From a virus, in the IMG/VR virus record IMGVR_UViG_3300022874_000465, positions 1 through 20,165 of that record: a stretch of DNA of 20,165 nucleotides, one strand, 5' to 3'. The stretch's first letter is position 1. Each line of letters starts with the position of its first letter. Shown here one piece after another: positions 1 to 12,594 of this stretch. A program made the position numbers and the translations under genes. Under the pieces are notes generated by a model, which saw nothing but the letters and a program-made list of their open reading frames with translations, did not search any database and was not told where the DNA came from.

Positions 1-17
1 TCAACATTTAGTTTCAT
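1..17 (-). CDS. 5' end of an MKLN-type hypothetical gene, cut by the window edge
   Basis: Only the first codons are present (MKLNV then a partial codon). The ATG is preceded by GAAGTGATACAA, identical to the start region of the gene at 257-496, and this stretch is part of the exact repeat 1-127 / 480-606. The gene is therefore very likely another copy of the MKLN...VKNIENM family. The rest lies outside the window. Function unknown. Confidence 0.6.
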
Positions 18-127
18 TTGTATCACTTCTTTATTTGTTTGTAATTGTTTATAATACTTTTCAACACTTTACGTCTTTCATCAGCTTCGATTGTTTCAAA
101 ACTATCATGTGCAACTTTTAAGCAATC
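1..127. repeat. 127-bp exact direct repeat, left copy
   Basis: Base-for-base identical to 480-606 (offset 479). It begins at the window edge and may extend further left. It contains the start of one MKLN-type gene, its SD GAAGTGAT, and the last 34 codons of the gene upstream. Identity stops abruptly at 128. Because flanking parts of the same genes are diverged, this looks like recent recombination or gene conversion rather than an old tandem duplication. Confidence 0.95.
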
Positions 128-250
128 GTCAAACATTTCATCGTCTGAAGGGTCTGCCACATTTTCAACTGGTCTTTTGTAAACCATTTTTTCAATGTTC
201 TTTACCAATGTTTCTGGATTGATTAGCAACCCATTAAGATCAAATCTCAT
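23..250 (-). CDS. chimeric hypothetical protein: MKLN-type N-terminus, Cys-family C-terminus
   Basis: 75 residues, function unknown. The N-terminal third (LLINPETLVKNIEKM, about residues 8-22) matches the N-terminus of the neighbour at 257-496 (LLINPDKYVKNIENM), also visibly at DNA level. The last 34 residues, from DCLKVAHDSF to NNYKQIKK, are identical to the C-terminus of the Cys-rich protein at 502-792, encoded by the 127-bp exact repeat. The gene is thus a fusion of two families, lacking the Cys cluster of the second. Start ATG follows GAGTGATGTGAA; the TGA of the upstream gene lies inside that site. The C-terminal half is predicted helical and charged. Stop TGA lies within the SD of the next gene. 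Confidence 0.85.
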   Translation of the reverse strand: MRFDLNGLLINPETLVKNIEKMVYKRPVENVADPSDDEMFDDCLKVAHDSFETIEADERRKVLKSIINNYKQIKK

Positions 251-256
251 TTCACA

Positions 257-496
257 TCACTCAATAATAATAGTTTCAGTTCCTTCTTCTTCACACTCTG
301 AATCATACTCTGGTTTCACATCATATGATTCGACAACAGGTTCAGGCTCTTCTACAACAATTGGTTTGGGTTCTACGACTTCTACAACTTCTACAGGCTC
401 TTCAATGATTTCAGCTTTTTTGCAGCTAAGCATATTCTCAATGTTCTTTACATACTTATCTGGATTAATTAATAGATTTTCAACATTTAGTTTCAT
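257..496 (-). CDS. MKLN-type hypothetical protein with Pro/Glu/Val-rich tail
   Basis: 79 residues, function unknown. The N-terminus MKLNVENLLINPDKYVKNIE is shared in part with the genes at 23-250, 10002-10520 and the fragment at 1-17. From about residue 30 it becomes a low-complexity acidic linker with repeated EEP/VVE/EPKP elements, ending in a Glu run; this part is probably disordered. I chose the ATG at 496 rather than an in-frame GTG at 505 because GAAGTGAT forms an SD five bases before the ATG and that GTG is part of it. The conserved N-terminal peptide on variable bodies may be a docking or targeting segment; that is inference. Confidence 0.8.
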   Translation of the reverse strand: MKLNVENLLINPDKYVKNIENMLSCKKAEIIEEPVEVVEVVEPKPIVVEEPEPVVESYDVKPEYDSECEEEGTETIIIE

Positions 497-606
497 TTGT
501 ATCACTTCTTTATTTGTTTGTAATTGTTTATAATACTTTTCAACACTTTACGTCTTTCATCAGCTTCGATTGTTTCAAAACTATCATGTGCAACTTTTAA
601 GCAATC
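480..606. repeat. 127-bp exact direct repeat, right copy
   Basis: Identical to 1-127. It covers the first codons of the gene at 257-496, its SD, and the 34 C-terminal codons plus stop of the gene at 502-792. The repeat is centred on a gene junction, not on a gene. Confidence 0.95.
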
Positions 607-792
607 TTCAATTTCATTTATAATACACGCATCTTTGTATAATTGGAATGGACACGTATAACCATCTTTGCGCTCACAATTATTATCACATACATCATTT
701 ACTATACATGCGTTGTTGATTTGTTCTACGAGTTCAGAAATTTTTTCAAGTCTGTCTACAATATATTTATCGGAGAATTGTTTATTTTCCAT
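502..792 (-). CDS. five-cysteine CPF mini-protein
   Basis: 96 residues. A helical, charged N-terminus is followed by Cys29, Cys35, Cys39, Cys47 and Cys56 (C-x5-C-x3-C-x7-C-x8-C, with CPF at 47-49), then a helical C-terminus that is exactly repeated in the gene at 23-250. The same cysteines at the same residue numbers occur in 799-1068, and four of five in 1817-2074. Metal or Fe-S binding is plausible from the spacing but not shown. Start ATG at 792 follows GAAGTGATTGAAG; an upstream in-frame TTG was rejected because it falls inside that site. The TGA of the preceding gene lies inside the same SD. Confidence 0.85.
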   Translation of the reverse strand: MENKQFSDKYIVDRLEKISELVEQINNACIVNDVCDNNCERKDGYTCPFQLYKDACIINEIEDCLKVAHDSFETIEADERRKVLKSIINNYKQIKK

Positions 793-798
793 CTTCAA

Positions 799-1068
799 TC
801 ACTTCTCAATTGGATGCACATCATTGTAATTTGTATCATTCATAATTTTTTTAATTTTTTCTTGTGCTTCAATAAGTTTAATATTCATCTTTTTAATCAT
901 ACAGTGGTCGGTATATACTTGAAATGGACATGTGTAATTGTCTTCTCTTTCACACTCGTTTTCACAATCTCCACTATACTTACACGCTTCTTCAAGTTCT
1001 TCTATAAGTTCAATCATGTTATTAACTATACACAATGTCCATTCATCACAGCTTCGTCTGTCTACCAT
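799..1068 (-). CDS. five-cysteine CPF mini-protein, paralogue
   Basis: 89 residues, paralogue of 502-792: Cys29, Cys35, Cys39, Cys47, Cys56 at identical positions, with the shared core YTCPFQVY. Two extra cysteines occur near the N-terminus (Cys7, Cys13). The N-terminal region IELIEELEEA is an amphipathic helix and the C-terminus is a Lys/Glu-rich helix. The start follows GAGGTGTTTAA. The gene overlaps the end of the gene at 1046-1633 by 23 bases in another frame. Function unknown; a small zinc- or iron-binding protein is the best guess. Confidence 0.85.
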   Translation of the reverse strand: MVDRRSCDEWTLCIVNNMIELIEELEEACKYSGDCENECEREDNYTCPFQVYTDHCMIKKMNIKLIEAQEKIKKIMNDTNYNDVHPIEK

Positions 1069-1633
1069 TTAAACACCTCACATCATTACCGTTTTCATCT
1101 ACCATTTTGTAATCGCAATTGTAGTCATCATTTTCTTTACACATTTCTTCATCATTCTCATCTGTTTGATAAGTGACATCACACATCTCAAGTTTAATAA
1201 TTGGTTTACATACTAATACACATAATCTTTCTATATCATCACTCCATTCGTCGTTACATGCTCTTTCTCTTTCTTCACTAAGTAATTTATTTGCATGTAA
1301 TAGAGCACTTTTCTTACCATCATATTTCTCACAATTATACAGGTGTAAATATTGTTCAGTGTCAATAACTAAATACTGTAGATCATTTTTATATTTTTCA
1401 AAGGTTTGTTTGTCTCCATTCAAATCTATAACCATGTGTCTTTGTGTAATGAGATTTGTATTGAGATCATTTTCTACAACGATAAATTTGTAATTGCATA
1501 TTTCATCAAAACCTCTATGCCAACAATTACCTTCTTTATCATAACCATTTTCATCTATCTCTGATTCATCTGGTTTGTGAACAACATCACACTGTTCCAA
1601 CATTCTAATCGGATAACATTCTAATACACACAT
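1046..1633 (-). CDS. Cys-rich internally duplicated protein, open part downstream of an in-frame TAG
   Basis: 195 residues from the first ATG, but no SD precedes it, and the frame stays open upstream to a TAG at 1688-1690. Beyond that TAG the same frame continues into 1691-1789, which has a good SD. The protein carries two related blocks: CVLECYPIRMLEQCDV near the N-terminus and CVLVCKPIIKLEMCDV near residue 137. The second block is preceded by ERERACNDEW. The equivalent of that preceding segment for the first block (RWCAWEGW) lies upstream of this ATG. The annotated ATG is therefore probably not the ancestral start. Either the gene is broken by nonsense mutation, the downstream half is restarted, or TAG is read through. 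Function unknown. Confidence 0.6.
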   Translation of the reverse strand: MCVLECYPIRMLEQCDVVHKPDESEIDENGYDKEGNCWHRGFDEICNYKFIVVENDLNTNLITQRHMVIDLNGDKQTFEKYKNDLQYLVIDTEQYLHLYNCEKYDGKKSALLHANKLLSEERERACNDEWSDDIERLCVLVCKPIIKLEMCDVTYQTDENDEEMCKENDDYNCDYKMVDENGNDVRCLNGRQTKL

Positions 1634-1687
1634 TTCTTCAGTGTTTTCATGCCATCCTTCCCACGCACACCACCTTTCATGTTCAAG

Positions 1688-1789
1688 CTAATCATGTAGA
1701 ATCTCGCACGCCACATTCTTCGAGTATTCAAGTTCTCTTTCACCATCTAATCCAACTACAACATACACCGGATCATACTTCTTCATCAT
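1688..1789 (-). pseudogene. 5' fragment of the split Cys-rich gene, ending in TAG
   Basis: 33 codons from ATG ATG (GAGG SD six or seven bases upstream) to TAG at 1688-1690. The fragment includes VYVVVGLDGERELEYSKN. It is in frame with 1046-1687 and aligns with the region before the second internal block of that gene (YLVIDTEQYLHLYN), so the two pieces once formed one gene of about 247 codons. Read alone it would make a 33-residue peptide. Suppression of the TAG would restore the full protein. Confidence 0.65.
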
Positions 1790-1828
1790 CAACCTCTTTA
1801 TTCATCATCAACCTCTTTATTCATTATC
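1782..1828. repeat. 19-bp tandem repeat over a gene junction
   Basis: Two copies of a 19-bp unit (1791-1809 and 1810-1828, one mismatch) plus a partial third copy at 1782-1790. On the minus strand each unit carries AATAAAGAGGTTGATGATG, so the stop and ribosome-binding region of the upstream gene is duplicated. Since 19 is not a multiple of three, the two ATG ATG pairs are in different frames. The first opens only an 11-codon ORF, the second opens the fragment at 1688-1789. Confidence 0.9.
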
Positions 1829-2074
1829 AACATTTCTCTCACTCACAATCCCATTAATATTATTACGTATCTTGTTTAAACTATCATAAATTATATCGAG
1901 ATGACAGTAATCTTTGTTCATTTCAAAAGGGCAGGGAGTTCCGTCACCCATTTTACATTTATTATCACGCACATTATTTTCTAAACAAATACTGTCTAAC
2001 CAACCAACAGTATCAATAAGTTCGTCCACTCTTTTTAGCATTTCTTCATCTGCCATATCTCTTACAATTGTCAT
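1817..2074 (-). CDS. CPF mini-protein with one cysteine replaced by arginine
   Basis: 85 residues, third member of the 502-792 family. Cys30, Cys40, Cys48 and Cys57 match; the second cysteine of the family is Arg36. The core GDGTPCPFEMNKDYC is clear. An N-terminal amphipathic helix (MLKRVDELIDTVGWL) and a C-terminal helix flank it. Start ATG at 2074 overlaps the upstream stop as ATGA and follows AAGGATGAACCC. The loss of one cysteine means that at least this copy cannot use all five as ligands. Function unknown. Confidence 0.8.
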   Translation of the reverse strand: MTIVRDMADEEMLKRVDELIDTVGWLDSICLENNVRDNKCKMGDGTPCPFEMNKDYCHLDIIYDSLNKIRNNINGIVSERNVDNE

Positions 2075-2346
2075 GGGTTCATCCTTGTTCTCTCATCCAT
2101 ATCGTTCTTAAGATCTTCAAACAAATTTGTAATTTTTAATATATTGCAATGCTCAAGTTGTTTTGTATAAACTTCATTCGTATTATTAAAAATACAATCT
2201 TTGCAACCGTTCTTAGCCAACGTTTCACATTCAAGCCAATAGTCATCAAAGAATTGTATGGTTTGTTTTCCTAACCTTTTGATTTCTTCTTTGGCTTGTT
2301 TTGACATTATGTATTGTTCTTTTGTTGCGTCTTCTTGTTTTGTCAT
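2071..2346 (-). CDS. Cys-containing hypothetical protein, distant CPF-type
   Basis: 91 residues. A Lys/Gln/Glu-rich helical N-terminus leads to Cys40, Cys48, Cys51 and Cys67 (C-x7-C-x2-C-x15-C, with NGCKDCIF), then a helical acidic C-terminus. The layout (helix, Cys knot, helix) matches the neighbouring CPF family but the spacing differs, so homology is only suggested. Start ATG follows GTGGTAAATCAAAA. It is translationally coupled to 1817-2074 by an ATGA overlap. Function unknown. Confidence 0.75.
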   Translation of the reverse strand: MTKQEDATKEQYIMSKQAKEEIKRLGKQTIQFFDDYWLECETLAKNGCKDCIFNNTNEVYTKQLEHCNILKITNLFEDLKNDMDERTRMNP

Positions 2347-2362
2347 TTTTGATTTACCACAT

Positions 2363-2734
2363 TTAAATTATTGAACTGATTGATCTAAGTGTTTCTTGAA
2401 TTGCATAATAATCGGGGTTTGTGATATGTAGATAAAGAGAACCAAGTGCCATGAACACTATAAATGATATTATAATTACTAATACCATAGTAAAGACTAA
2501 AAGCATGAAATCCTCGTCCTCAAGTTTATCTCCAATTTCCATTTCTTTATTTGATTTTAATATCCGTTTGTATACAAGATATAAGGTTACACATGTGGTT
2601 ATAACTACGAGAAATACTGTAACAGTTAGTGTTATCGATTGAGTTACACAAAATTTAGCATTAATACTTGTAATTTCAGTAAGTGCGATTCCTAATTTAT
2701 CTGCGAGTGTGATAGCTGCGTCTCCGAGTTCCAT
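2363..2734 (-). CDS. two-helix inner-membrane protein
   Basis: 123 residues with two strong hydrophobic segments, about residues 33-55 (ITLTVTVFLVVITTCVTLYL) and 76-102 (FMLLVFTMVLVIIISFIVFM), separated by a charged loop with EIGDKLEDED. The C-terminus has NPDYYAIQETLRSI, a type of ending I recall in other small phage-encoded membrane proteins. There is no cleavable signal. It could act in superinfection exclusion, membrane remodelling or as a holin-like protein, but nothing in the sequence decides. Start follows GAGGTAGATTAATT. One of only two clear membrane proteins in the window. Confidence 0.8.
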   Translation of the reverse strand: MELGDAAITLADKLGIALTEITSINAKFCVTQSITLTVTVFLVVITTCVTLYLVYKRILKSNKEMEIGDKLEDEDFMLLVFTMVLVIIISFIVFMALGSLYLHITNPDYYAIQETLRSISSII

Positions 2735-2736
2735 AA

Positions 2737-3660
2737 TTAATCTACCTCTTTTATCTTATCTTTGGGAGTAACACTACACCCATCCAAATCACCAACAATC
2801 CAAAATGATTTTGAATTGTAATGTTCTGATTCATATGCATCACAAATATCTTCTTCGATATTTATGTTATTTAAATCAATCTCATTATCTTTTCCAAATA
2901 TATTATCTATAATTAGTTTGCATAGACCTTCTTCATCAACATCTTCAACTAATTCTTCATCTGTGTGCAAACCATATCCGCCATCAACATCATATAATAC
3001 ATATTTGTCAAGCTCTTTATTCCAAACATTTATGCAATAAGATACAGAGCATAATAACATATCATTAAAACAATCCCAATTCTGTATAAAGAACACGTGT
3101 GGAGAAGAGAAACCACCACGAGCATCAGCGCCATTATGTGTTTGAATGATTAAATATTCATGTCCACCTGTATGATCTACGAATAATGTATATAACCAAT
3201 TACCATTTAAAAGATGTTCATAATTATATGTGTAACCGTGTGATTCACATTCAAGATCAATTTTGTATGATTCGTCTTCTTCTTCATCATAAAATATAAA
3301 TCCATTTTTAACAATTGCTTTGCGCCATTCTTCTACATTATCCCGGTATGATTCTTTGTTGTTGTTAATATCGTTCCACAAGTCTTGTTCCATCTGTTTT
3401 GATACTTCATTTATATCTAAAAATGCATTGAAGAAATGAAATAGACTTTTTGAAATTATTAGATTTTCATCATTTGAGATTTCGAGTTTTGATTCTGGTT
3501 CGTTAATTAATGTAACATCTGCTAACCTTTGCCATCTCCTATTAGATTCACCACCTGAGTCTAACATACTTGTACCTGTGTTTTCTTTTATGATCATTGA
3601 AAGTGCATTATCTTTGTGCCCTTCAAGGATTTCTTTTGTTATGTCTTCTTGATATGTCAT
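2737..3660 (-). CDS. conserved phage-type hypothetical protein (LDSGG / HNGxDxRGG)
   Basis: 307 residues. The N-terminal NTGTSMLDSGGESNRRWQR (about residues 27-45) and the later THNGADARGGFSSPHVF resemble a widespread phage protein family I recall as LDSGG...GR..QRN plus HNGcDxRGGY.P.vF; the function of that family is not known to me. Between them lies a region rich in acidic and aromatic residues; the C-terminal part contains YDVDGGYGLH and a long acidic stretch. Start chosen at ATG 3660; the AGGAG lies 11 bases upstream, rather far, and a GTG at 3672 overlaps it. The second-largest intact gene in the window. Confidence 0.8.
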   Translation of the reverse strand: MTYQEDITKEILEGHKDNALSMIIKENTGTSMLDSGGESNRRWQRLADVTLINEPESKLEISNDENLIISKSLFHFFNAFLDINEVSKQMEQDLWNDINNNKESYRDNVEEWRKAIVKNGFIFYDEEEDESYKIDLECESHGYTYNYEHLLNGNWLYTLFVDHTGGHEYLIIQTHNGADARGGFSSPHVFFIQNWDCFNDMLLCSVSYCINVWNKELDKYVLYDVDGGYGLHTDEELVEDVDEEGLCKLIIDNIFGKDNEIDLNNINIEEDICDAYESEHYNSKSFWIVGDLDGCSVTPKDKIKEVD

Positions 3661-3679
3661 CTTTTGTTTCACTCCTGTT

Positions 3680-3943
3680 TTACCACGTTTGGATTATATA
3701 CAAATATAAATCCGTGGAAATAATTGTTTCTTCTGCAAGTGTTTGGTTTCCACAATTGTTAATTTCATATCTTTTTAAAAGTTTTCCTACTTTTTCATCA
3801 GATTTGGAATTAATTATATCGTAACCAAATCCCAATTCATCTGGTGAAACTTTATAATTTTCATTTGTAAATTCTCTTGTTACATTTATAATGTTGTGTT
3901 CTACTTCATTAATTTCTTCAATTGTGTCAATTTTAATTAACAT
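3680..3943 (-). CDS. hypothetical protein, 87 aa
   Basis: Unrecognised. The N-terminus MLIKIDTIEEINEVEHNI looks like a beta strand followed by a helix, the middle has a Lys-rich helix (DEKVGKLLKRYEI), and the C-terminus is strand-like (STDLYLYIIQTW). No cysteine cluster or membrane segment. ATG at 3943 was chosen over an in-frame GTG at 3955 because GAGGTGA sits just upstream and that GTG is inside it. The TGA of the preceding gene lies in the same SD. The stop precedes the AGGAG of the gene at 2737. Confidence 0.75.
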   Translation of the reverse strand: MLIKIDTIEEINEVEHNIINVTREFTNENYKVSPDELGFGYDIINSKSDEKVGKLLKRYEINNCGNQTLAEETIISTDLYLYIIQTW

Positions 3944-3951
3944 TTTTCTTT

Positions 3952-4206
3952 TCACCTCATTTTCTCTATTTCAATTGCTTCACGATATTTTCTTTTAATA
4001 GTGTTGATTGCATCGAATACACAATCAATCTCTTCATTTGCAGGCGGTGTCATTTTGTCTTTGTGATAATCGCTACCAGAACAATTCAAACAATTCTGAT
4101 CACATTCTAAAATAATTGCGTTGTAATAATTTTCAAGTTCATCAAGATGCACACCGAGTTCTTTGAAATTCGGCTCGTTTATATGAAGTTCATCAACGTG
4201 TTTCAT
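3952..4206 (-). CDS. small Cys-containing hypothetical protein
   Basis: 84 residues with Cys35, Cys39, Cys42 and Cys62 (ILECDQNCLNCSGSDYHK), flanked by an N-terminal acidic helix and a C-terminal Lys/Arg-rich helix (AINTIKRKYREAIEIEKMR). The layout recalls the CPF mini-proteins at 502-2074 but the spacing is different. Start ATG at 4206 follows GAGAGGAAAGGAAAA and overlaps the end of the upstream gene by 14 bases; a longer in-frame ATG at 4242 has no comparable site. Likely metal-binding; function unknown. Confidence 0.75.
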   Translation of the reverse strand: MKHVDELHINEPNFKELGVHLDELENYYNAIILECDQNCLNCSGSDYHKDKMTPPANEEIDCVFDAINTIKRKYREAIEIEKMR

Positions 4207-4462
4207 TTTTCCTTTCCTCTCCTCTCTCTTTACAACTTTCATACCATTCTTCTAAGAATTCGTTGTTATACATATCTGTTACCGAAATTGAGCTATCTAT
4301 TGTTTTACCGACTCGAACTGCTCCACTTTTTCCCAAATATCTGTAACCATCTTTTCTTGCATGACTCATTCTGATATATTTTGAGCTGCTGTAATGTTCG
4401 TCAACTTTCCATTCAAGCGCTTCAAAATATAAGATGAGAAGGTCTTTTCTTTTTAGTTTCAT
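4193..4462 (-). CDS. hypothetical protein, basic, 89 aa
   Basis: More basic than its neighbours. A helical N-terminus (MKLKRKDLLILYFEALEWK) is followed by KYIRMSHARKDGYRYLGKSG and AVRVGKTIDSSISVTDMY, which look like beta strands of a compact domain; I have a vague memory of similar phage proteins but cannot name a family. The C-terminus is a charged helix. ATG at 4462 overlaps the upstream stop as ATGA and follows GGGAACAAGT, which supports it over the ATG at 4474. Confidence 0.75.
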   Translation of the reverse strand: MKLKRKDLLILYFEALEWKVDEHYSSSKYIRMSHARKDGYRYLGKSGAVRVGKTIDSSISVTDMYNNEFLEEWYESCKERGEERKNETR

Positions 4463-4743
4463 ACTTGTTCCCATATATCATAATCTCTGTTGTAATATTC
4501 AATCGAAGTGCAGCCCGAACTTCCTCTCCCGAAATCATCAAGCGGTTCAAAATATTTATGTTCCCATCCTTTATCACACAACAATCTGCCATAATAGTAA
4601 AGGTAATCATCACCATCAAGGAGTTTGAAAGCTATGTGTGGATAAGAGTTCCAAACTATCTCATCATAATCTTCTGATAAGATGGTAAATTTGGGTTCTT
4701 TATCATTGAGAAAATTAAATACATTAAAGTCAATTTTGAACAT
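4459..4743 (-). CDS. conserved phage-type hypothetical protein (PLDDFG...GCT)
   Basis: 94 residues. The segment FEPLDDFGRGSSGCTSIEYY followed by a terminal Trp (DIWEQV) is a pattern I recall from many small phage proteins with no assigned role. Before it, YLYYYGRLLCDKGWEHKY looks like an antiparallel beta region. The start ATG is 12 bases beyond GAGG, a long spacing, but it is the first in-frame ATG after the upstream stop. Translationally coupled to 4193-4462 by ATGA. Function unknown. Confidence 0.75.
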   Translation of the reverse strand: MFKIDFNVFNFLNDKEPKFTILSEDYDEIVWNSYPHIAFKLLDGDDYLYYYGRLLCDKGWEHKYFEPLDDFGRGSSGCTSIEYYNRDYDIWEQV

Positions 4744-4750
4744 GTTTTAG

Positions 4751-5347
4751 TTAGTCCTCTGTTCTTTCACCGTTATTTTTTTGTGAATTTTCTAGATATC
4801 TTTTCCATGTGTATTCACCGTCTTCTTCTTTATCATCTTCTTCTCCACTGTCTTCATCTTCTTCTTCATTTACAAGTTCTTCAATATAATTTGCAATGAT
4901 ATTAATCATCACATTGATTCTGTAGTATTGTCCAATTTGTAGTTTTATAAAGATATCAGTTTCATTTGGGTCGATCCATCCATTTTCAATTGCTTCGTTA
5001 ATATTAAAAAGTCGATTTGTGTTATCACGATACCATCCAAGTTGGTTGTAGGTTGAATCATCTGTTTCTGAGTCGGCAATTTCATAACCAATATCGTGTG
5101 CATCATCCCATGTTGTTATATCCCAACTTGTCAGATGCTCAAGAATATTAATGATTGTTCTGTAAGACCAGCCGTTTGGAATCTCTTCATCGTGACATTC
5201 ATAAATCATGTTGCGCAGATTTTCATCATCTTGAAATTCTCGTTTTACTCTGTAATATTTACCTTTGCAGTCATCTTCATCTACATAATCTCTTGTTGCT
5301 TCTTCAAATTTGTTAAGCACATCTTTTACTGCTTCGTTAAAGCTCAT
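4751..5347 (-). CDS. hypothetical protein family Y (FNEAV...KFE.ATRD), copy 2
   Basis: 198 residues, clear paralogue of 16163-16675: both start M(S/N)FNEAVK, then KFE.ATRD, KYYRVK.EF.DD, CHD(D/E)E(I/L)PN.W.Y.TI..IL, a variable middle with GWY.D..NR..NI.E, a (I/S)(G/A)QY.RI segment, and an acidic tail. Here the tail is longer (EEDEDSGEEDDKEEDGEYTW). The fold is predicted mostly helical. I recall similar proteins in other phages, without a function. Start ATG follows GAAGTGAAATAAATT. Confidence 0.85.
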   Translation of the reverse strand: MSFNEAVKDVLNKFEEATRDYVDEDDCKGKYYRVKREFQDDENLRNMIYECHDEEIPNGWSYRTIINILEHLTSWDITTWDDAHDIGYEIADSETDDSTYNQLGWYRDNTNRLFNINEAIENGWIDPNETDIFIKLQIGQYYRINVMINIIANYIEELVNEEEDEDSGEEDDKEEDGEYTWKRYLENSQKNNGERTED

Positions 5348-5360
5348 AATTTATTTCACT

Positions 5361-5951
5361 TCATACTTTGTCTAATAGTTCTTGTAGCTCATCGTTTATA
5401 GTGTTTTCGCTATATTTCACAATTACATAATCATATTTTGCACAATTGACCATGTCCTGAACAATTTCATCAAGAGTCATTTCTTCGTAATTAGATGGTA
5501 AATCTTCTTCTCCATTATAATACCATTCCCAAAAATCCCATATGCCCATATTCTCCACACATGATAAGTTGTCAATAAGATCATAAACACGTTCATCTAA
5601 TTCCCAAGTTGCGCGATCATTAAACTGTCCGATGTAGCTGCTTCCATTCCACTTTTCGCACCAATGGTTTAATAGTTGTTCAAGCATTTCTTTTATATTA
5701 GAATTCTCCCATTCATCCTGAAATCTTATCACATTAATATCACCGGGAAGATTATAATATGATTCAAAACCGAGATGACTTCTCATTGAATAAGTGCCAT
5801 CTTTATATTTTGTTATAATATCGGCGGTTGCATTTTCCCAATCAACAACAAGATAAATCAGAGCCTGTTGATAATTGTTGTATGGATCTTGTTCAACAAC
5901 ATCCATTTCATTCTCATATTTAGATATAAGTTTTAACTTTTTCATTGTCAT
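5361..5951 (-). CDS. hypothetical protein, 196 aa, Trp-rich acidic
   Basis: Unrecognised. The N-terminus (MTMKKLKLISKYENEMDV) is followed by a strand-like region ALIYLVVDWENATADIITKY, then by helices rich in Trp, Asp and Asn (LLNHWCEKWNGSSYIGQF; MGIWDFWEWYYNGEEDLP). The C-terminus ends in a strand and helix (YDYVIVKYSEN). ATG at 5951 was chosen because GAGGAG lies just upstream, inside the codons of a longer open frame. The TGA of the upstream gene overlaps this SD. No metal site or membrane segment. Confidence 0.8.
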   Translation of the reverse strand: MTMKKLKLISKYENEMDVVEQDPYNNYQQALIYLVVDWENATADIITKYKDGTYSMRSHLGFESYYNLPGDINVIRFQDEWENSNIKEMLEQLLNHWCEKWNGSSYIGQFNDRATWELDERVYDLIDNLSCVENMGIWDFWEWYYNGEEDLPSNYEEMTLDEIVQDMVNCAKYDYVIVKYSENTINDELQELLDKV

Positions 5952-5965
5952 AATTTGTCTTCTCC

Positions 5966-6154
5966 TCATTCAAAATAATAAATGCACCAATAATCTGTTC
6001 CCATGTGGCTTGTAAATAGTGTGCCAGCTTTCATCATATCAAGAATTTCAACCACATTTTTCCAATGGTCTTCAATGAAATCAATCACTCTATCTAATGT
6101 TGTTTCTTCTGTTACTCCATCACTAAATGCTCTGTAGTATTTGTATCCTATCAT
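5966..6154 (-). CDS. small hypothetical protein, 62 aa
   Basis: Unrecognised. Composition suggests a strand (YKYYRAF), a helix (TLDRVIDFIEDHWKNVVEILDMM) and a short C-terminal strand pair ending DYWCIYYFE. Start ATG overlaps the upstream stop by one base (TGATG) and follows GAGAGGTTTTG, so it is translationally coupled to 6154-6501. Function unknown. Confidence 0.75.
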   Translation of the reverse strand: MIGYKYYRAFSDGVTEETTLDRVIDFIEDHWKNVVEILDMMKAGTLFTSHMGTDYWCIYYFE

Positions 6155-6501
6155 CAAAACCTCTCAAATTCCTGCTTCATTAACCAATTAGCGAATTCAT
6201 ACCACATTGGAACATCTATATCCCCACCAAGATATGTTTTATGATGATCTTCGCGCTCATTTTCTGGTTTTTCGTTGTATAACTTCTCAGAATGTTCGTA
6301 GTGTTCAATCGCATTTACAACTCTACTTTCGATAATACTTTTTGTGCCTTCATCAAGATTATTCCAATGTGTTTTAATAATATTTACGATAGTATGTGGT
6401 AGATATGTCATCCTTCCAATAGAATGATCAAGCGCCGATGTTAATACAAGTTTGGCTTCTTCTTGATTTAAAATAATTTGTGGTTGTTCATCTGGCATCA
6501 T
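6154..6501 (-). CDS. hypothetical protein, 115 aa, helical
   Basis: Unrecognised. Mostly helical: ILNQEEAKLVLTSALDHSIG, IVNIIKTHWNNLDEGTKSII, AIEHYEHSEKLYNEKPENER, and an ending PMWYEFANWLMKQEFERF. Starts ATG ATG after GAGGATTAGATA. The frame continues upstream through ATA and a TAG (6505-6507) directly into the small gene at 6505-6618, so suppression of that TAG would give a 154-codon fusion. The good SD argues for independent translation. Confidence 0.8.
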   Translation of the reverse strand: MMPDEQPQIILNQEEAKLVLTSALDHSIGRMTYLPHTIVNIIKTHWNNLDEGTKSIIESRVVNAIEHYEHSEKLYNEKPENEREDHHKTYLGGDIDVPMWYEFANWLMKQEFERF

Positions 6502-6504
6502 TAT

Positions 6505-6618
6505 CTAATCCTCATCATATTCATCAAGAATGTCATCATCATCATAATATCCACATATATCACTGATGTTATCTACAATCTCTTCACGTCTGTTTTCTGA
6601 TAATAAAAATCGTCCCAT
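6505..6618 (-). CDS. tiny acidic protein, 37 aa, ends in TAG
   Basis: An N-terminal LLSENRREEIVDNISDI helix precedes a tail of mostly Asp and Tyr. Start ATG follows GTGAGTGAATAAC, and the TGA of the upstream gene lies inside this SD. It is the only accepted gene in the window that stops with TAG, and it is in frame with the next gene (6154-6501). The N-terminal motif resembles LENRREMLLKEF in the small gene at 8977-9138. Function unknown. Confidence 0.6.
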   Translation of the reverse strand: MGRFLLSENRREEIVDNISDICGYYDDDDILDEYDED

Positions 6619-6623
6619 GTTAT

Positions 6624-6962
6624 TCACTCACTGTTTTCGTTTGCATAGTATTCGTTAATTTCGTCAAGCGATTCTACAGTGAAATCACAATTGCCAACAA
6701 GACAATCGTTATCAATATCCATAGCCCAAATTGGATATAATTCTAATCCTTCAGGAATAGTGTATGATGGTAGGTTACATATATCAACTCCAAACGTAGT
6801 CAAACAATAGTCACAATAATATTCTCCACATAGGATATTAATGTTATTGTTTAGTTCATTTAATAGATCGCGCAATTTACCCACATTTTGTTTGTTCCAG
6901 TGCGTAATATCATATGCGAGTTCGTTACAAGAAATTTCCAGTTGATCTTTTTTTGATGTCAT
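6624..6962 (-). CDS. hypothetical protein with CxxC, 112 aa
   Basis: Unrecognised. The N-terminal half is helical (ELAYDITHWNKQNVGKLRDL). A Cys cluster follows (ILCGEYYCDYCLTTFGVDIC), which may bind a metal. The second half has Pro-flanked strands (YPIWAMDIDNDCLVGNCDF) and a final acidic helix. Start ATG follows AGGTAAACATTAA, with the upstream gene's TAA inside the site. Function unknown. Confidence 0.75.
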   Translation of the reverse strand: MTSKKDQLEISCNELAYDITHWNKQNVGKLRDLLNELNNNINILCGEYYCDYCLTTFGVDICNLPSYTIPEGLELYPIWAMDIDNDCLVGNCDFTVESLDEINEYYANENSE

Positions 6963-6969
6963 TTAATGT

Positions 6970-7275
6970 TTACCTGCTTTTGTATTTTGAGAATGCTTTG
7001 TCTTTTCCGTGGATGTCAAAGATATATTTGAGTTGTAACATTTCAGAATTGATAACATCATACACTTCAGATTCTATAAGATATTTTAAGATTTTGTTTA
7101 AAATAAACATAACTTGTACGTCATTTAATGATAGGACAAAATCTATGAATTCTGTGTTTTCGTCTTGTATCTCACTTAAAATTTCATAACCAGAAATGTA
7201 AGCTGTTTGTTCAGTGGATAATTCAATAAATACGTTTGTTAGTTTCTCTCTTCTTAGTTCTTCATTTGTTTGCAT
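6970..7275 (-). CDS. RFSNI / TDxE-type paralogue family, member 1
   Basis: 101 residues, related to 7278-7586 and 7579-7869. Shared features are NVFIELSTEQTAYISGYEIL (compare RFSNI...T.YxxGxDIL in the neighbours), then a helix, then VLSLNDVQVMFILNKIL matching LSMTDDEIESVMQNEIL. The copy is more diverged than the other two. Mostly alpha-helical, no Cys or membrane segment. Start ATG follows GAGGCTGTTAATT. Function unknown. Confidence 0.75.
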   Translation of the reverse strand: MQTNEELRREKLTNVFIELSTEQTAYISGYEILSEIQDENTEFIDFVLSLNDVQVMFILNKILKYLIESEVYDVINSEMLQLKYIFDIHGKDKAFSKYKSR

Positions 7276-7277
7276 AA

Positions 7278-7586
7278 TTAACAGCCTCTTACATATTCTT
7301 TTTTATAGAAGTCAATATCATCATCCATCATTACAATTGTATGTTCAATTTCTTTTTGCACTCGTTCACATTCAAATAGTGCTCTTAAGATTTCATTTTG
7401 CATTACTGATTCTATTTCATCATCTGTCATTGATAATATTAATTTATCAATATCCCATCCACGTCTCTCTGCTAACGACCATAACAAATCATCTCCGGTA
7501 ATACACATTGTTCTCGTTACAGATATGTTACTAAATCTTTTCACAATTTCTTTGTCGAATTTATTTACTAAATATGAATCAAGCAT
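7278..7586 (-). CDS. RFSNI / TDxE-type paralogue family, member 2
   Basis: 102 residues. RFSNISVTRTMCITGDDLLW aligns with RFSNITANDTLYLNGTDIL in the gene upstream, followed in both by DDEI plus a Gln-Asn helix start (MQNEIL / LQNILC) and an acidic ending with MDDDID / MEDDID. Start ATG lies inside the end of 7579-7869 (8-base overlap) after AAGGTGAATAATT. A similar plan (G.DLL..L ... LTDxDM) is seen in 13286-13567 and 13789-14067. Function unknown. Confidence 0.8.
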   Translation of the reverse strand: MLDSYLVNKFDKEIVKRFSNISVTRTMCITGDDLLWSLAERRGWDIDKLILSMTDDEIESVMQNEILRALFECERVQKEIEHTIVMMDDDIDFYKKEYVRGC

Positions 7587-7869
7587 AATTATTCACCTTA
7601 TCAATGTCATCTTCCATCTGATCAATTGTTAATTCTATCTCTGGAATTATCTGTTCTTCAAAGAATGCACATAGAATGTTTTGTAACAAGTTTTTGATTT
7701 CATCATCACCCATTAATATAATTGATTCTGTAACTTTTCCATGTCCTCTTTTTGCGAGACATACTAATATATCCGTACCATTTAAATAAAGAGTATCATT
7801 TGCAGTTATGTTACTGAATCTCCCGACAGTTTCATTGCCAAATTCTTTACTCAATTCTTTATGAAACAT
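7579..7869 (-). CDS. RFSNI / TDxE-type paralogue family, member 3
   Basis: 96 residues, closest relative of 7278-7586. RFSNI is at about residues 17-21, GTDIL near 31-35, GDDEIKNLLQNIL near 53-65, and an acidic C-terminus with QMEDDID. Start ATG follows GATGATTAAATT. The three genes 6970-7869 form one tandem array in descending similarity, so local duplication is the likely origin. Function unknown. Confidence 0.8.
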   Translation of the reverse strand: MFHKELSKEFGNETVGRFSNITANDTLYLNGTDILVCLAKRGHGKVTESIILMGDDEIKNLLQNILCAFFEEQIIPEIELTIDQMEDDIDKVNNYA

Positions 7870-7872
7870 AAT

Positions 7873-8094
7873 TTAATCATCATCCTTTTCTTCTTCAAAA
7901 ATTTCATCTCCACATTCATCAATTTTCGTGATTATATATATTTCTGTTTGAAGATCCTCAACAACTCCTTGATCTAATAGTTCATCGAGATTTTCATTAC
8001 TCACAAATTCTTCTACTTCATCTTCATTTTCCAAATCACTATACTTTTTTGTGATAAAAAATGATACCTTTGTACAAACTTCACAATCTGTCAT
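7873..8094 (-). CDS. tandem acidic paralogue pair, copy A
   Basis: 73 residues, paralogue of 8097-8312. Both begin with M(T/M)DC, then a strand (KVSFFITKKYSDL / EVTFTLEKEYNGV), ENEDEVEEFVSNENLDELL versus ENEEEADMIMSREELEELL, a second strand (TEIYIITK / VEVTEVLV), and an acidic EEEK tail. The start ATG follows AATT and a rather distant GGAG. A longer frame from 8133 adds an Arg-rich stretch that is only the SD region translated, and was rejected. Function unknown. Confidence 0.8.
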   Translation of the reverse strand: MTDCEVCTKVSFFITKKYSDLENEDEVEEFVSNENLDELLDQGVVEDLQTEIYIITKIDECGDEIFEEEKDDD

Positions 8095-8096
8095 AA

Positions 8097-8312
8097 TTAA
8101 TCGTCTTCTCCTTCCTCTTTTTCTTCCTCCCATGTTTTTGTTACAAGAACTTCAGTTACTTCTACGTTAAAATTTTTAACTGTTTCCTGATACAATAGTT
8201 CTTCGAGTTCTTCACGGCTCATAATCATATCTGCTTCTTCTTCGTTTTCTACACCATTATACTCTTTTTCTAAGGTGAAAGTTACTTCTGCAACTGCTCT
8301 ACAGTCCATCAT
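8097..8312 (-). CDS. tandem acidic paralogue pair, copy B
   Basis: 71 residues, paralogue of 7873-8094 (see there). The beta-alpha-beta layout with an A/E-rich helix recalls the four small proteins at 10563-11344, but I cannot align them convincingly. Start ATG ATG follows GAGGAAGACAATTAATT. The acidic tail (EEEKEEGEDD) is probably disordered. Function unknown. Confidence 0.8.
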   Translation of the reverse strand: MMDCRAVAEVTFTLEKEYNGVENEEEADMIMSREELEELLYQETVKNFNVEVTEVLVTKTWEEEKEEGEDD

Positions 8313-8314
8313 AA

Positions 8315-8584
8315 TTAATTGTCTTCCTCATTAGTTGCATCAAGAATCTTTTTGATTTCAATATATTTTCTTTCCACATCATCAACTTTATAAAGTAGTT
8401 CTTTTAAATAACATGATTTTTCATAATCATTGTAGAATATGCACTCTTCATCATGGCAATTATTTTCACAATCTTCAATTACATTTTCAAGAAACCATAT
8501 GTAATCAGATACTGTATTTTCTCTAAAGTTTTCAAACAATTCTATAAATTCGTGTTTTTCATTTTCATTAAATTTTTCGTCCAT
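8315..8584 (-). CDS. Cys-containing acidic mini-protein
   Basis: 89 residues. Acidic helical N-terminus, then Cys39, Cys43, Cys48 and Cys58 (EDCENNCHDEECIFYNDYEK), then a helical C-terminus (LLYKVDDVERKYIEIKKIL). The plan helix, Cys cluster, helix and the ECIFY...C ending link it loosely to the CPF family at 502-2074 and to the GECIFERD segment of 12286-12594. Start ATG follows GGAGATGATTAAAA. Metal binding plausible; function unknown. Confidence 0.8.
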   Translation of the reverse strand: MDEKFNENEKHEFIELFENFRENTVSDYIWFLENVIEDCENNCHDEECIFYNDYEKSCYLKELLYKVDDVERKYIEIKKILDATNEEDN

Positions 8585-8603
8585 TTTTAATCATCTCCAT
8601 TAT

Positions 8604-8966
8604 TCACATTTCAAATCCACACTTGAGACATTTGTAACCATCGAAGCACCATTCGTTACGTTCAACATACCCAAATACATTCTTCTCTTCAAGTTCTTCT
8701 CCACAATTTTCACAGAATAATTTACCTCTATATTTTCCAGAACAATCCATGTTTATTAAAGTTTTTCCATTTGAAACTCTGTAATCTCTGAAATTGATTT
8801 TGTGTTTTCCATATTCAATAGACCAGATTCCACCATTAATAAATACTTTCTCTCCTTTCTCAAAAACTTCGTCAACAATATCATCTATACGTTGTCCACA
8901 ATCCATGCAATAATCAAGGTCGTTATTTTTAACTTGTTTTTTTGTAAGTTTTATAAGCTTTTCCAT
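8604..8966 (-). CDS. zinc-ribbon hypothetical protein with three CxxC
   Basis: 120 residues. Three CxxC motifs: YCMDCG (Cys20, Cys23), LFCENCG (Cys85, Cys88) and YKCLKCG (Cys113, Cys116), with single Cys75 and Cys107 between. The last two pairs could form one zinc ribbon, the first pair plus Cys75 another site. The middle (KVFINGGIWSIEYGKHKINF) looks like a beta sheet. Start at ATG 8966 after GATGTGATCGAA, a near-perfect extended SD; the open frame to 8984 was not used. Could bind nucleic acid or protein; function unknown. Confidence 0.8.
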   Translation of the reverse strand: MEKLIKLTKKQVKNNDLDYCMDCGQRIDDIVDEVFEKGEKVFINGGIWSIEYGKHKINFRDYRVSNGKTLINMDCSGKYRGKLFCENCGEELEEKNVFGYVERNEWCFDGYKCLKCGFEM

Positions 8967-8976
8967 TTCGATCACA

Positions 8977-9138
8977 TCATTCAAGATAACTTATTTCTTC
9001 TGCTATTTCTGCAAGCTCATCAGATATCATGATTTGACAGTCTATTAATTTTTCTTCGGGAAGATTTAATTTAAATAAATTGTCGAATTCTTTAAGTAAC
9101 ATTTCTCGTCTGTTTTCAAGGGTGTTGAGTTTTGACAT
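8977..9138 (-). CDS. small helical hypothetical protein, 53 aa
   Basis: Two predicted helices: MSKLNTLENRREMLLKEF and LIDCQIMISDELAEIAEEIS, with no other features. Start ATG follows CGTGATTAAA. The stop lies 10 bases before the ATG of 8604-8966 and next to its SD. The LENRREML motif recurs in similar form in 6505-6618 and 9820-9951. Tight packing and SD support it as a real gene. Confidence 0.75.
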   Translation of the reverse strand: MSKLNTLENRREMLLKEFDNLFKLNLPEEKLIDCQIMISDELAEIAEEISYLE

Positions 9139-9162
9139 TTTAATCACGTTTAATAATTTATT

Positions 9163-9453
9163 TTATCTGGTATCAAAAATGAGATTTTTATCAACTACTT
9201 TTAAGAATGCACAGAGATCAGCTTTACAACTGATATCCACTGCACCATTACGAATCATTTCAACTGTTTTAACAAAATCATCAAAGTTATCTTCACATTG
9301 TTTAACCCAACCTTTCATTTTACATGTTTTACAAGGTGAGTCAAAATCATTGATGTGTGGTTCAAGAAATTTTTGAATTTCACCAGATTCGCGGTGTATT
9401 TCTGTTTCGAGAGAGAAGATATGACCACCGGGACATATCCATTTAATTACCAT
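9163..9453 (-). CDS. putative zinc-binding hypothetical protein, 96 aa
   Basis: The N-terminus IKWICPGGHIFSLETEIH (Cys7, His11) and DSPCKTCKMKGWVKQC (Cys41, Cys44, Cys53) could form a treble-clef-like or ribbon site of the CPxGH...CxxC type. The C-terminal half is helical (NFDDFVKTVEMIRNG). Start ATG at 9453 follows AGGAGAATAAAA; the frame to 9471 only reads through this SD. The upstream TAA is inside that region. Function unknown. Confidence 0.8.
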   Translation of the reverse strand: MVIKWICPGGHIFSLETEIHRESGEIQKFLEPHINDFDSPCKTCKMKGWVKQCEDNFDDFVKTVEMIRNGAVDISCKADLCAFLKVVDKNLIFDTR

Positions 9454-9455
9454 TT

Positions 9456-9641
9456 TTATTCTCCTTTGCATTCATAGATAGGATGATTCTCTTCTTTTCT
9501 CTCATCAATTAAACTGGTTCCACATTTTCTACAATAGCCACCATTCGGTTTTGTTCCAAGATTCATGTTTCTACTATCCCAACAAATGATTCCACATTTG
9601 GGACAGATTAATACTGTATATTTATCTTTCATAATTTTCAT
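9456..9641 (-). CDS. small zinc-ribbon protein, 61 aa
   Basis: A canonical zinc ribbon: VLICPKCGIICWDS (Cys13, Cys16, Cys20) and GYCRKCGTSL (Cys37, Cys40), with a final Cys58. No clear SD precedes either possible ATG (9641 or 9632). Instead a 14-bp palindrome lies four bases upstream and GGTGGA lies before it. This gene is the first after the only sizeable non-coding gap, so it may head its own transcript. Zinc-binding is well supported; the role is not. Confidence 0.8.
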   Translation of the reverse strand: MKIMKDKYTVLICPKCGIICWDSRNMNLGTKPNGGYCRKCGTSLIDERKEENHPIYECKGE

Positions 9642-9644
9642 ATT

Positions 9645-9658
9645 AAACTTTAAAGTTT
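9645..9658. promoter_or_regulatory. 14-bp perfect palindrome before a start codon
   Basis: AAACTTTAAAGTTT is its own reverse complement. It ends four bases before the ATG at 9641 and lies between that ATG and the purine-rich GGTGGA. It could be an operator, or in RNA a short stem (AAACT/AGTTT, loop TTAA) between SD and start. AT-rich palindromes can occur by chance, so this is tentative. Confidence 0.35.
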
Positions 9659-9682
9659 TCCACCATCAATACACATCGCCAT
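9650..9682 (-). other. possible leader peptide, 10 codons
   Basis: ATG GCG ATG TGT ... TAA encodes MAMCIDGGKL. GGTGAT lies two bases before the first ATG and eight before the second, one of the better sites in the window. The stop falls in the palindrome at 9645-9658, nine bases before the ATG of the zinc-ribbon gene. It could couple translation into that gene, which lacks its own SD. Very short, so chance is possible. Confidence 0.3.
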
Positions 9683-9819
9683 ATATCACCGTCACACAAC
9701 TTTGCAACACGCTCCCTTGTGTTTATACATTGATGCGCACGATGCTTGTAGGGGGGCTGTGTGTTAACATTTAAAAAATAGTTGTGTTGTTGTGTTTAAT
9801 TTCATATCCATTTTCTTCT

Positions 9820-9951
9820 TTATTTGATTACACCATTACCTTGCATTATCTGTTTTAACATTTCTTTTCTGACATTTTCTGTTATCACATTTCTTTCTGA
9901 TCCGATTGTGTGTATGATGTCATTTTGTTTATCGTTAATTTTCATCTTCAT
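9820..9951 (-). CDS. small hypothetical protein, 43 aa
   Basis: Residues include HTIGSERNVITENVRKEMLK and end in QIMQGNGVIK, which looks like real protein. ATG at 9951 or 9945 (both in frame); neither has a strong SD. An 8-codon ORF with a good SD (GAGTGTGAATATT before the ATG at 9961) overlaps its start in another frame and could provide coupling. Function unknown. Confidence 0.5.
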   Translation of the reverse strand: MKMKINDKQNDIIHTIGSERNVITENVRKEMLKQIMQGNGVIK

Positions 9952-9959
9952 CTTCGAGC

Positions 9960-9989
9960 ATAATATTCACACTCTATAATTATTCTCAA
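9960..9989 (-). promoter_or_regulatory. candidate sigma-70-type promoter
   Basis: On the minus strand TTGAGA (9984-9989) and TATTAT (9960-9965) are 18 bases apart, each one base from the bacterial consensus. It would start transcription near 9953, almost at the ATG of the 43-residue ORF, which is odd. The region is very AT-rich, so a chance match is likely enough to keep confidence low. Confidence 0.25.
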
Positions 9990-10001
9990 TATTATTTAAA
10001 A

Positions 10002-10520
10002 TTATTTATTTTTAAGTCTAATAGCTTCAGCACTTCGTATAGCATCGCCGTGTTCTCTCATTAGATCTTCATCATTTACTGAAAGATATGATGAATATTT
10101 GTTTCTAATACCTGTTTCTGTTTCAACAACTAAACAATCGCCATCTGTTTCCATGATGTCGTCTTTACAATCTTTAGATTTAATAATAAACAATCCTTTT
10201 TTATCAATAACAAATACATAGTCAGGATTAAAAGCCACCGAGAGGGGATAACTTGGGATTTCCATGACATTCAAATCGACTTCATCTTCGTGAATTCCAA
10301 GCAGCCGTCCATATTTCTTGTTGTAATCTTTTCTGAGTTTAACCAATTCATTAAACTGTCTGCATACAATATTTGCGTCTTGTTTGTCCCACCCTCTGAT
10401 TAATTTAGTAAGCATCTGTCCACGTTTTACAATGACATCTTCTGCTGATGTTTTGTTGTACGTGATGTTCTCGACGTTCTTTACGATGTTGCTGTGATCT
10501 GTTTTTACATTTAGTTTCAT
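10002..10520 (-). CDS. MKLN-type hypothetical protein, 172 aa
   Basis: The N-terminus MKLNV...SNIVKNVENITYNK shares its start and VKNxENx peptide with 257-496 and 23-250, also visible at DNA level. It then has a different body: a helical segment (GQMLTKLIRGWDKQDANIVC, then QFNELVKLRKDYNKKYGRLL), followed by a strand-rich segment (SVAFNPDYVFVIDKKGLFII) and a helical end with EHGDAIRSAEAIRLKNK. Start follows GAGGAAAACAAA. This is the longest member of the group and shows that the N-terminal peptide occurs on unrelated bodies. Function unknown. Confidence 0.8.
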   Translation of the reverse strand: MKLNVKTDHSNIVKNVENITYNKTSAEDVIVKRGQMLTKLIRGWDKQDANIVCRQFNELVKLRKDYNKKYGRLLGIHEDEVDLNVMEIPSYPLSVAFNPDYVFVIDKKGLFIIKSKDCKDDIMETDGDCLVVETETGIRNKYSSYLSVNDEDLMREHGDAIRSAEAIRLKNK

Positions 10521-10562
10521 TTTGTTTTCCTCGATAGTAGTTTATTCTTATGTGTATTAAAG

Positions 10563-10775
10563 TTATTTGTTTGTAGGTTCTTCGTTTGTGATTTCTTCAA
10601 TTTCACTATACTTTATATTAACCACGCCGGTATATTCTTTGGGGGTGGCATCGATGATTTTATTGTGTATAATATCACGGATTTTTTCTGCTCCCTCTGC
10701 GTTATCTGCTTTGAATTTTATCTCTCCATCAAAAGAGACTTCACATTTTGTTTTGTATGTTTTCATTTTAGTCAT
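10563..10775 (-). CDS. small tandem family (F.G....A....A), member 1
   Basis: 70 residues: MTKMKTYKTKCEVSFDGEIK, then FKADNAEGAEKIRDII and a C-terminal strand and EIEEI. It aligns with the next three genes: strand, (F/H)(D/E)G, strand, A(D/K/E)xxEgA, helix, and IxEIEE near the end. The beta-beta-alpha layout recalls DpnD/PcfM-like small domains, from memory only. Start at 10775 after AAAGGTAAACAAG; it overlaps the upstream gene by 8 bases. A second in-frame ATG is at 10766. Confidence 0.75.
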   Translation of the reverse strand: MTKMKTYKTKCEVSFDGEIKFKADNAEGAEKIRDIIHNKIIDATPKEYTGVVNIKYSEIEEITNEEPTNK

Positions 10776-10809
10776 CTTGTTTACCTTTAACTTCTTCAAT
10801 TTCGTCAAT
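10756..10809. repeat. 54-bp junction repeat, copy 1
   Basis: Matches 10940-10993 at 50 of 54 positions (offset 184): 25 and 24 identical bases flank a 5-base variable stretch. It covers the end of one gene, its SD and the start of the next. Four mismatches fall just in the SD-proximal stretch. Confidence 0.85.
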
Positions 10810-10959
10810 CCAAGAGTCTTCACAATATATATCAGTTGGTTCTTCTTCAATTAGTTTTCCCCACTTTTTTCTTGCTTCGTCCTCATTTTTTGCATTTAAA
10901 TCTACATCTCCTTCAAAAACCATTTTATATTTGATTCTATATGTTTTCATTTTAGTCAT
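10768..10959 (-). CDS. small tandem family (F.G....A....A), member 2
   Basis: 63 residues: MTKMKTYRIKYKMVFEGDVD, LNAKNEDEARKKWGKLIEEE and SWIDEIEEVKGKQDD. The C-terminus nearly equals that of member 3 (SYIDEIEEVKEGQDD). Start at ATG 10959 after AGAGGGACAAG; the longer frame to 10992 only extends into the upstream gene's codons. Overlaps both neighbours by 8 bases at the sequence GATGACTAAAATG. Function unknown. Confidence 0.8.
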   Translation of the reverse strand: MTKMKTYRIKYKMVFEGDVDLNAKNEDEARKKWGKLIEEEPTDIYCEDSWIDEIEEVKGKQDD

Positions 10960-10993
10960 CTTGTCCCTCTTTAACTTCTTCAATTTCGTCAAT
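10940..10993. repeat. 54-bp junction repeat, copy 2
   Basis: Partner of 10756-10809. It spans the last codons of the gene at 10952-11149 and the first codons of the gene at 10768-10959. Confidence 0.85.
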
Positions 10994-11149
10994 GTAAGAA
11001 TCTACACATTGTTCAGTTTCATCATTGTAAGCCGGGTCATCATTCCAGTCTCTAATTGCATCTTCTTTTGATTCAGCTTCGATTGTAACGTTACCTTCGT
11101 GCACAATGTGGTAGAATATTTTATACTCTTTTAATTCAATTTTAGACAT
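10952..11149 (-). CDS. small tandem family (F.G....A....A), member 3
   Basis: 65 residues: ELKEYKIFYHIVHEGNVTIE, AESKEDAIRDWNDDP, and SYIDEIEEVKEGQDD at the end. Family layout as in the neighbours. Start follows GTGATTAAAG, and the TGA of the upstream gene lies inside this SD. The most acidic member. Function unknown; a DpnD/PcfM-like fold is a guess from pattern. Confidence 0.8.
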   Translation of the reverse strand: MSKIELKEYKIFYHIVHEGNVTIEAESKEDAIRDWNDDPAYNDETEQCVDSYIDEIEEVKEGQDD

Positions 11150-11155
11150 CTTTAA

Positions 11156-11344
11156 TCACAACTTTTTAATTTTTATTTCTTTTGTTTTCAATTTATATTT
11201 TATCTCACACGCTCCATTTTTATATGCAGTTGGGGATTTTAAGAAAATACGTTCTGCTTCATCCTCACTTTTAGCTTCTATAAAAGTTTTTCCTTCTGTT
11301 ACACACTCCCAGCATAATTTGAATAATTTAATTTTGTTTGTCAT
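11156..11344 (-). CDS. small tandem family (F.G....A....A), member 4
   Basis: 62 residues, the most diverged member: KLFKLCWECVTEGKTFIEAK, SEDEAERIFLKSP, and a Lys-rich C-terminus (YKLKTKEIKIKKL) instead of the acidic EIEE end. The EAKSEDEAERIF helix start matches AESKEDAIRDW of member 3. Start follows GTGATTAAAA. It is basic at the C-terminus, so it may differ in partner. Function unknown. Confidence 0.8.
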   Translation of the reverse strand: MTNKIKLFKLCWECVTEGKTFIEAKSEDEAERIFLKSPTAYKNGACEIKYKLKTKEIKIKKL

Positions 11345-11358
11345 TTTTAATCACACTC

Positions 11359-11736
11359 TTAAAATTCATATCCGAACGATTCAATGTATTCCATTTCGTT
11401 TATACAACACTGACTTTTATTATCTTTATCTAAAGGTTCACCACAATAAGAGCACAGGTAATGATTTGGATCTATTGGTTTTTGGCAAACTTCACAGAAC
11501 ATAAGAGATCCTTCGAGAAAGAAATCTAAAACATCTAATCGTTCAAGATCGTAATCATCATAATCTTTTATTTCAGATTTTAAACATTCGAGACATATAA
11601 CACTGCCATCATCGAACATTGCATAACAATTTCCGTTGTAAAAAATTCTTCCATTGATGTCGTTATCTTTTTCCCACTGTTCAAAATTTGATTTAAGAGC
11701 TTGTTTATCTTCATCTGTTAATACAATATGCATCAT
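11359..11736 (-). CDS. zinc-ribbon hypothetical protein, 125 aa
   Basis: Three CxxC pairs: VICLECLK (Cys48, Cys51), MFCEVCQK (Cys81, Cys84) and LCSYCGEP (Cys95, Cys98), plus Cys110-Cys111. The last two pairs form a probable zinc ribbon. The N-terminus is helical (DEDKQALKSNFEQWEKD). The start has the best SD in the window, GGAGGTGATTAATTAA before ATG ATG. The upstream stop TAA directly abuts the ATG. Function unknown. Confidence 0.85.
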   Translation of the reverse strand: MMHIVLTDEDKQALKSNFEQWEKDNDINGRIFYNGNCYAMFDDGSVICLECLKSEIKDYDDYDLERLDVLDFFLEGSLMFCEVCQKPIDPNHYLCSYCGEPLDKDNKSQCCINEMEYIESFGYEF

Positions 11737-12258: not shown

Positions 12259-12285
12259 TTTAATTTACCACCGTTAATATTCTCA

Positions 12286-12594
12286 TTATACTAACACGAG
12301 TCTTAATTCTTCATTGGTTAATTCTTCGCAGCAAAAGTCAGAGATTTCATTCTTGGCTCGCATTGTTTCTAATATACAAATTTTACCTGTATCTCGTTCA
12401 AAGATACACTCACCGTCTTCTGCGTAGTATGGACATATATGTTCCTTTGCATTAATTAAATCGATCACCTCATTATTAAGAAGCTCACTAACAGCTTCAT
12501 AAACTTCTGGTAAATCAATAATTTCAGATACTTTCATATCACGAATCAGTTCAAAGAGTTCAGCATCAAATTCTTCTTGTGTAATTTTCGTCAT
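12286..12594 (-). CDS. hypothetical protein with YEAVSELLNNEV and CPYY module
   Basis: 102 residues. The N-terminal half has LPEVYEAVSELLNNEVIDLI, a pattern I recall from other small phage proteins (iPxVYExxSExxNNEV). The C-terminal half is a Cys module: Cys54, Cys63, Cys73 (ICPYYAEDGECIFERDTGKI), then DFCCEELTNEELRL. The same module (CPHF..C..C...GCETLTTEESRL) is in the adjacent gene at 12591-12929 on a different N-terminus. ATGA overlap and GGAGATAACTAA support the start. Function unknown. Confidence 0.85.
   Translation of the reverse strand: MTKITQEEFDAELFELIRDMKVSEIIDLPEVYEAVSELLNNEVIDLINAKEHICPYYAEDGECIFERDTGKICILETMRAKNEISDFCCEELTNEELRLVLV

Follow-up and report, generated by a model that had tools for sequence, protein, structure and literature searches.

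The window, a stretch of 20,165 bases with 31% G+C, is a complete IMG/VR record, and its base 1 therefore marks where the contig itself ends rather than an arbitrary cut. Several small genes lie at this end, all on the minus strand. Gene A (502–792, minus strand) encodes 96 amino acids and has paralogues at 799–1068 and 1817–2074. Gene B (257–496, minus strand) encodes 79 amino acids when read from the ATG at 496–494 and is present in two identical copies, the other of which is visible in the window only by its start (1–17, minus strand), as it is truncated by the contig end. Between them lies the fusion gene C' (23–250, minus strand; 75 amino acids), which consists of a stop-less gene C followed in frame by the last 34 residues of A. 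The SD-like sequence GAAGTGAT (501–508, minus strand) precedes B and sits at the 3' end of A, where it overlaps the stop codon of A; its copy at 22–29, at the end of C', overlaps the C' stop codon in the same way. The initial annotation, made from the sequence alone, described ORF 23–250 as chimeric, and this holds: the N-terminal motif LLINPxxxVKNIExM of C' is also found in B, and its last 34 amino acids, DCLKVAHDSFETIEADERRKVLKSIINNYKQIKK, are identical to the tail of gene A.

The same annotation reported that positions 1–127 equal positions 480–606 and that the repeat covers a gene end, an SD and the next gene start. Exact-match comparison bore out this 127-nt identity, and the elements covered are the 3' end of A, the SD-like GAAGTGAT and the start of B. 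To the right the match stops where 128 G faces 607 T, and to the left it runs up to the contig end. Since the next longest exact repeats within the window are only 24–25 nt, chance is ruled out as its origin.

In searches against Pfam and PHROG, no family matched A, B or C' convincingly, and AlphaFold models were poor (mean pLDDT 65.8 and 55.8). A fusion at a domain edge was considered and found unsupported, as the low-confidence model of A places the breakpoint inside a helix. Elsewhere in the window, a 172-amino-acid ORF (10002–10520, minus strand) has an N-terminus, MKLNVK...IVKNVENI, that resembles B and C; the rest of this longer protein is different.

The duplicated block in an overlapping contig

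An IMG/VR search with gene A recovered a second record containing the locus, IMGVR_UViG_3300031227_003885, of 38,148 bases (coordinates on this 38-kb contig carry the labels L008 and L007). Over 13.85 kb it matches window positions 1–13,853 apart from six substitutions and a single indel, and it reaches further left than the window, of which base 1 corresponds to L008 5295. The two contigs are very probably separate assemblies, since they differ at seven sites and a single assembly would not normally output the same 13.85 kb twice. The leftward extension that the initial annotation had called for could thus be carried out through the 38-kb contig, and it yielded a 483-nt repeat together with its left flank.

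This repeat is a perfect direct repeat (L008 4939–5421 and 5418–5900) with a period of 479. The two copies are adjacent, head-to-tail and in the same orientation, and they overlap by the four bases AATC. The duplicated unit is a 479-nt block that comprises the last 34 codons of A, gene B and gene C. The second full copy lies at 124–606 of the window (unit 128–606, period 479), which is L008 5418–5900 and identical to 4939–5421. Positions 1–127 are the final 127 nt of the first (left) copy (L008 5295–5421, the end of copy 1), and AATC at 124–127 is the duplication joint, the four bases being common to both breakpoints. The repeat reads as 127 nt in the window because the window contig begins inside the first copy. 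On the coding strand the gene order is A-B-C'-B-C. The native gene C (L008 4937–5065, in the left outer copy) encodes 42 amino acids, MRFDLN...DDEMFDD, and ends with its own TAA. Both outer edges read as unrearranged genes, on the left with the gene C stop and on the right with an intact gene A. At the inner joint the stop codon of gene C is exchanged for GATTGC... of gene A, which gives C', with MFDD|CLKVAHD as the peptide across the fusion point. The joint sequence, with the unit end AAGCAATC running into the unit start GTCAAAC, is present in both contigs.

The A/B junction is thus not the site of either breakpoint: one falls in gene A, ahead of the final 34 codons, and the other at the gene C stop. 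This bears on the initial annotation, which took the 127-bp repeat for an exchange anchored at that junction, by which domains could be swapped between small genes. Gene conversion or targeted exchange of this kind, acting as a domain-shuffling device, would fit with the facts that the 127-nt stretch does span the A/B junction and that the region is full of paralogues. However, once the left flank is seen, the identity extends through two adjacent copies over their full 483 nt, its bounds are a point within A and the end of C rather than the junction, and no second instance of the same exchange was found. Nor was there a tract that is bounded by the junction and runs between separate paralogous genes. 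With a unit of 479 nt and breakpoints inside A and at the C stop codon, the anchored exchange of 127 bp falls away; the wider claim of domain exchange between small genes is not supported, as a single joint is seen, shared by two contigs from the same virus population. The loss of identity at 128 had been ascribed to recent recombination or gene conversion. The event is indeed recombinational and looks recent, but the break at 128 marks the joint of the tandem duplication, and the structure can be explained without gene conversion. We consider an exchange anchored at the junction extremely improbable, and it is highly probable that the 479-nt block was recently duplicated in tandem at this locus, without any difference between the copies, and that the 127-bp repeat is the remainder left by an assembly cut.

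Relatives and a host were also sought. To find an unduplicated relative, IMG/VR was searched by protein, by alignment and by DNA pattern, and a phage collection by tblastn with gene A; these searches returned only the 38-kb contig or nothing. Among the collections searched, the sole other record with the locus is therefore this contig, which carries the duplication. Tailed phages with varied hosts carry relatives of the SNF2 helicase of this contig (best match 43.7% identity over 64%), and a search with the contig's helicase gave one more, distant relative at 27% identity. A host search with the PHP-domain gene of the 38-kb contig in a genome-contig collection gave no match. The contig further encodes a diversity-generating retroelement (L007 1–56, 1294–2370 and 2596–2651; reverse transcriptase RVT_1, E 1.3e-21) with its template repeat at L007 2596–2651 and its variable repeat at L007 1–56, and all 10 of the 10 differences in this 56-nt block fall at template adenines. 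Sugar genes are present as well, for a UDP-sugar dehydrogenase, a GFO/IDH/MocA oxidoreductase and a DegT aminotransferase (L007 3032–4534, 11610–12629 and 12669–13877).

The contig end and the assembly graph

The length of 127 nt can be understood from the assembly. A de Bruijn graph of the locus with 127-mer vertices has exactly two branching vertices, which are the first (L008 4939/5418) and the last (5295/5774) 127-mer of the repeat. Base 1 of the window, at L008 5295, is thus a branching vertex at k=127, and it is not one at k 99, 121 or 141. JGI metagenomes are assembled by metaSPAdes with k 33, 55, 77, 99 and 127 (PMC10604447), so that 127 is the largest k of this pipeline. From the 127-nt length and this JGI practice we infer that the window was assembled by metaSPAdes at k=127. 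It very probably represents the path of last 127-mer, back edge, repeat and right flank, cut where the assembler was unable to decide between continuations; the exact 127-bp repeat would then be there because an assembler using 127-mers broke the contig at a branch point inside the repeat. Overlaps of k-mer length in de Bruijn assemblies usually join the two ends of circular contigs. The present case is like them in that a branch in a metaSPAdes graph at k=127 leaves just such an exact 127-nt repeat at the end of a contig, but it differs in that the overlap pairs one contig end with an internal position, the repeat being a tandem loop. A cautionary point for practice is that where a contig ends in an exact repeat as long as the assembler's k-mer, the assembly has been broken there, and the repeat in the genome may be longer.

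Since the repeat begins exactly at the contig end and its length equals the k of the assembler, the whole structure might be suspected to be an artefact, in which a single genomic copy was given a joint by chimeric reads or by a false graph loop. The branch at k=127, however, accounts for the position of the contig break and not for the existence of the joint. The joint occurs in two contigs with different SNPs, one of which has both full copies and, in its left flank, the stop codon of the native gene C, and chimeric reads are not expected to make an identical in-frame joint twice. A purely artefactual origin therefore seems very improbable. Because the longer contig has the same joint, a false duplication is unlikely, and the tandem duplication is very probably genuine. 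The copy number is at least two and the true number could exceed two; the placement of repeats longer than the reads depends on the assembler's own handling of loops. Both copies are identical, which suggests that the duplication event was recent or that the copies have been kept alike through recombination.

Formation of the fusion gene

The duplication most likely arose when illegitimate recombination, slippage during replication or a template switch connected a site in gene A with the C stop codon, two sites that have only AATC in common. The resulting joint removed the C stop and fused C in frame to the A tail, giving C', and the A tail brought along the ribosome-binding site of B, so that the second copy of B would retain its translation start. 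Since this tail carries the SD-like GAAGTGAT, the duplicated B retains its start signal, and both copies of B are probably translated. A shared stretch of at least four bases has a chance of about 3% at random pairs of breakpoints. The AATC thus mildly favours joining guided by microhomology, and four shared bases are weak evidence for a specific recombination mechanism. Guidance by similarity of the breakpoints beyond AATC was rejected, as the score was not above background (34% of random pairs scored as high).

In phage T4, recombination at short microhomologies, typically of 6–10 bp, leads to tandem segmental amplification of the small counter-defence gene tifA (PMC9391042). This amplification of dmd-tifA was obtained under laboratory selection against a toxin-antitoxin defence and reached about tenfold (Srikant et al., 2022, PMC9391042). 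The two cases are alike in that a block of small genes forms head-to-tail tandem repeats, with one copy of the short breakpoint sequence left between the repeats. They differ in that T4 was under selection in the laboratory, with about tenfold amplification and typically 6–10 bp at the breakpoints, whereas here there are two copies and 4 bp in an environmental virus; the in-frame fusion gene is a feature of this virus. By this comparison the process is of an already known kind, with an anatomy of the same kind as that of T4 tifA.

The T4 case also raises the question whether the duplication is neutral, or an adaptive copy-number amplification that raises the dose of B or C or lengthens the array; such an amplification would refine the tandem-duplication reading and not compete with it. 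The segmental amplification of a small counter-defence gene at microhomologies of 6–10 bp in T4 (PMC9391042) would agree with adaptive amplification, as would the fact that B is duplicated whole with its start signal, but the family searches gave no function for A, B or C, and we regard an adaptive role as possible though rather unlikely. Whichever applies, the tandem duplication at this locus can be described as recent, well resolved and ordinary; it gives rise to a fusion ORF, and in the window it is very probably viewed through an assembly break at k=127.

Local paralogues in the window

The duplication lies in a region with many local paralogues. A significant paralogue within the window was found for 21 of its 57 minus-strand ORFs. 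All but one of the 15 paralogous pairs (14/15) lie within four genes of each other, compared to 2.0 expected under permuted gene order, and none of 20,000 permutations reached 14, a figure that is indicative since pairs of the same family are not independent. As controls for the paralogue search, reversed sequences gave no pairs and five shuffles gave 0–1. Among these pairs, A/C' is the recent event itself and B/C' goes back to an earlier relationship between B and C; the other families in the window are for the most part diverged and older.

ORF 1046–1633 (minus strand) resembles its own upstream part with 39% identity over 61 amino acids when an in-frame TAG is read through. The region 1046–1797 (minus strand), with this TAG near 1687, points to a tandem duplication of greater age that has partly fused or decayed. 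The local clustering of paralogues and the self-resemblance of this ORF therefore indicate that tandem duplication is a repeated process in the region. At 10563–11344 (minus strand) there are four consecutive short paralogous ORFs (10563, 10768, 10952 and 11156) with a 143-nt repeat at 76% identity. The sole distant pair in the window consists of 4751–5347 and 16163–16675 (minus strand), which are clear paralogues (E about 1e-46) lying 11 kb apart.

It is conceivable, though we hold it to be improbable, that the region repeatedly makes new small genes via local tandem duplication and loss of stop codons, and that C' or the dosage of B could be under selection in a conflict with host defences. 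If this were true, one such event would have been caught so fresh that its copies remain identical. In any case the locus gives an exact view of a fusion gene and an extra gene copy arising in a natural virus population, amid older local duplicates.
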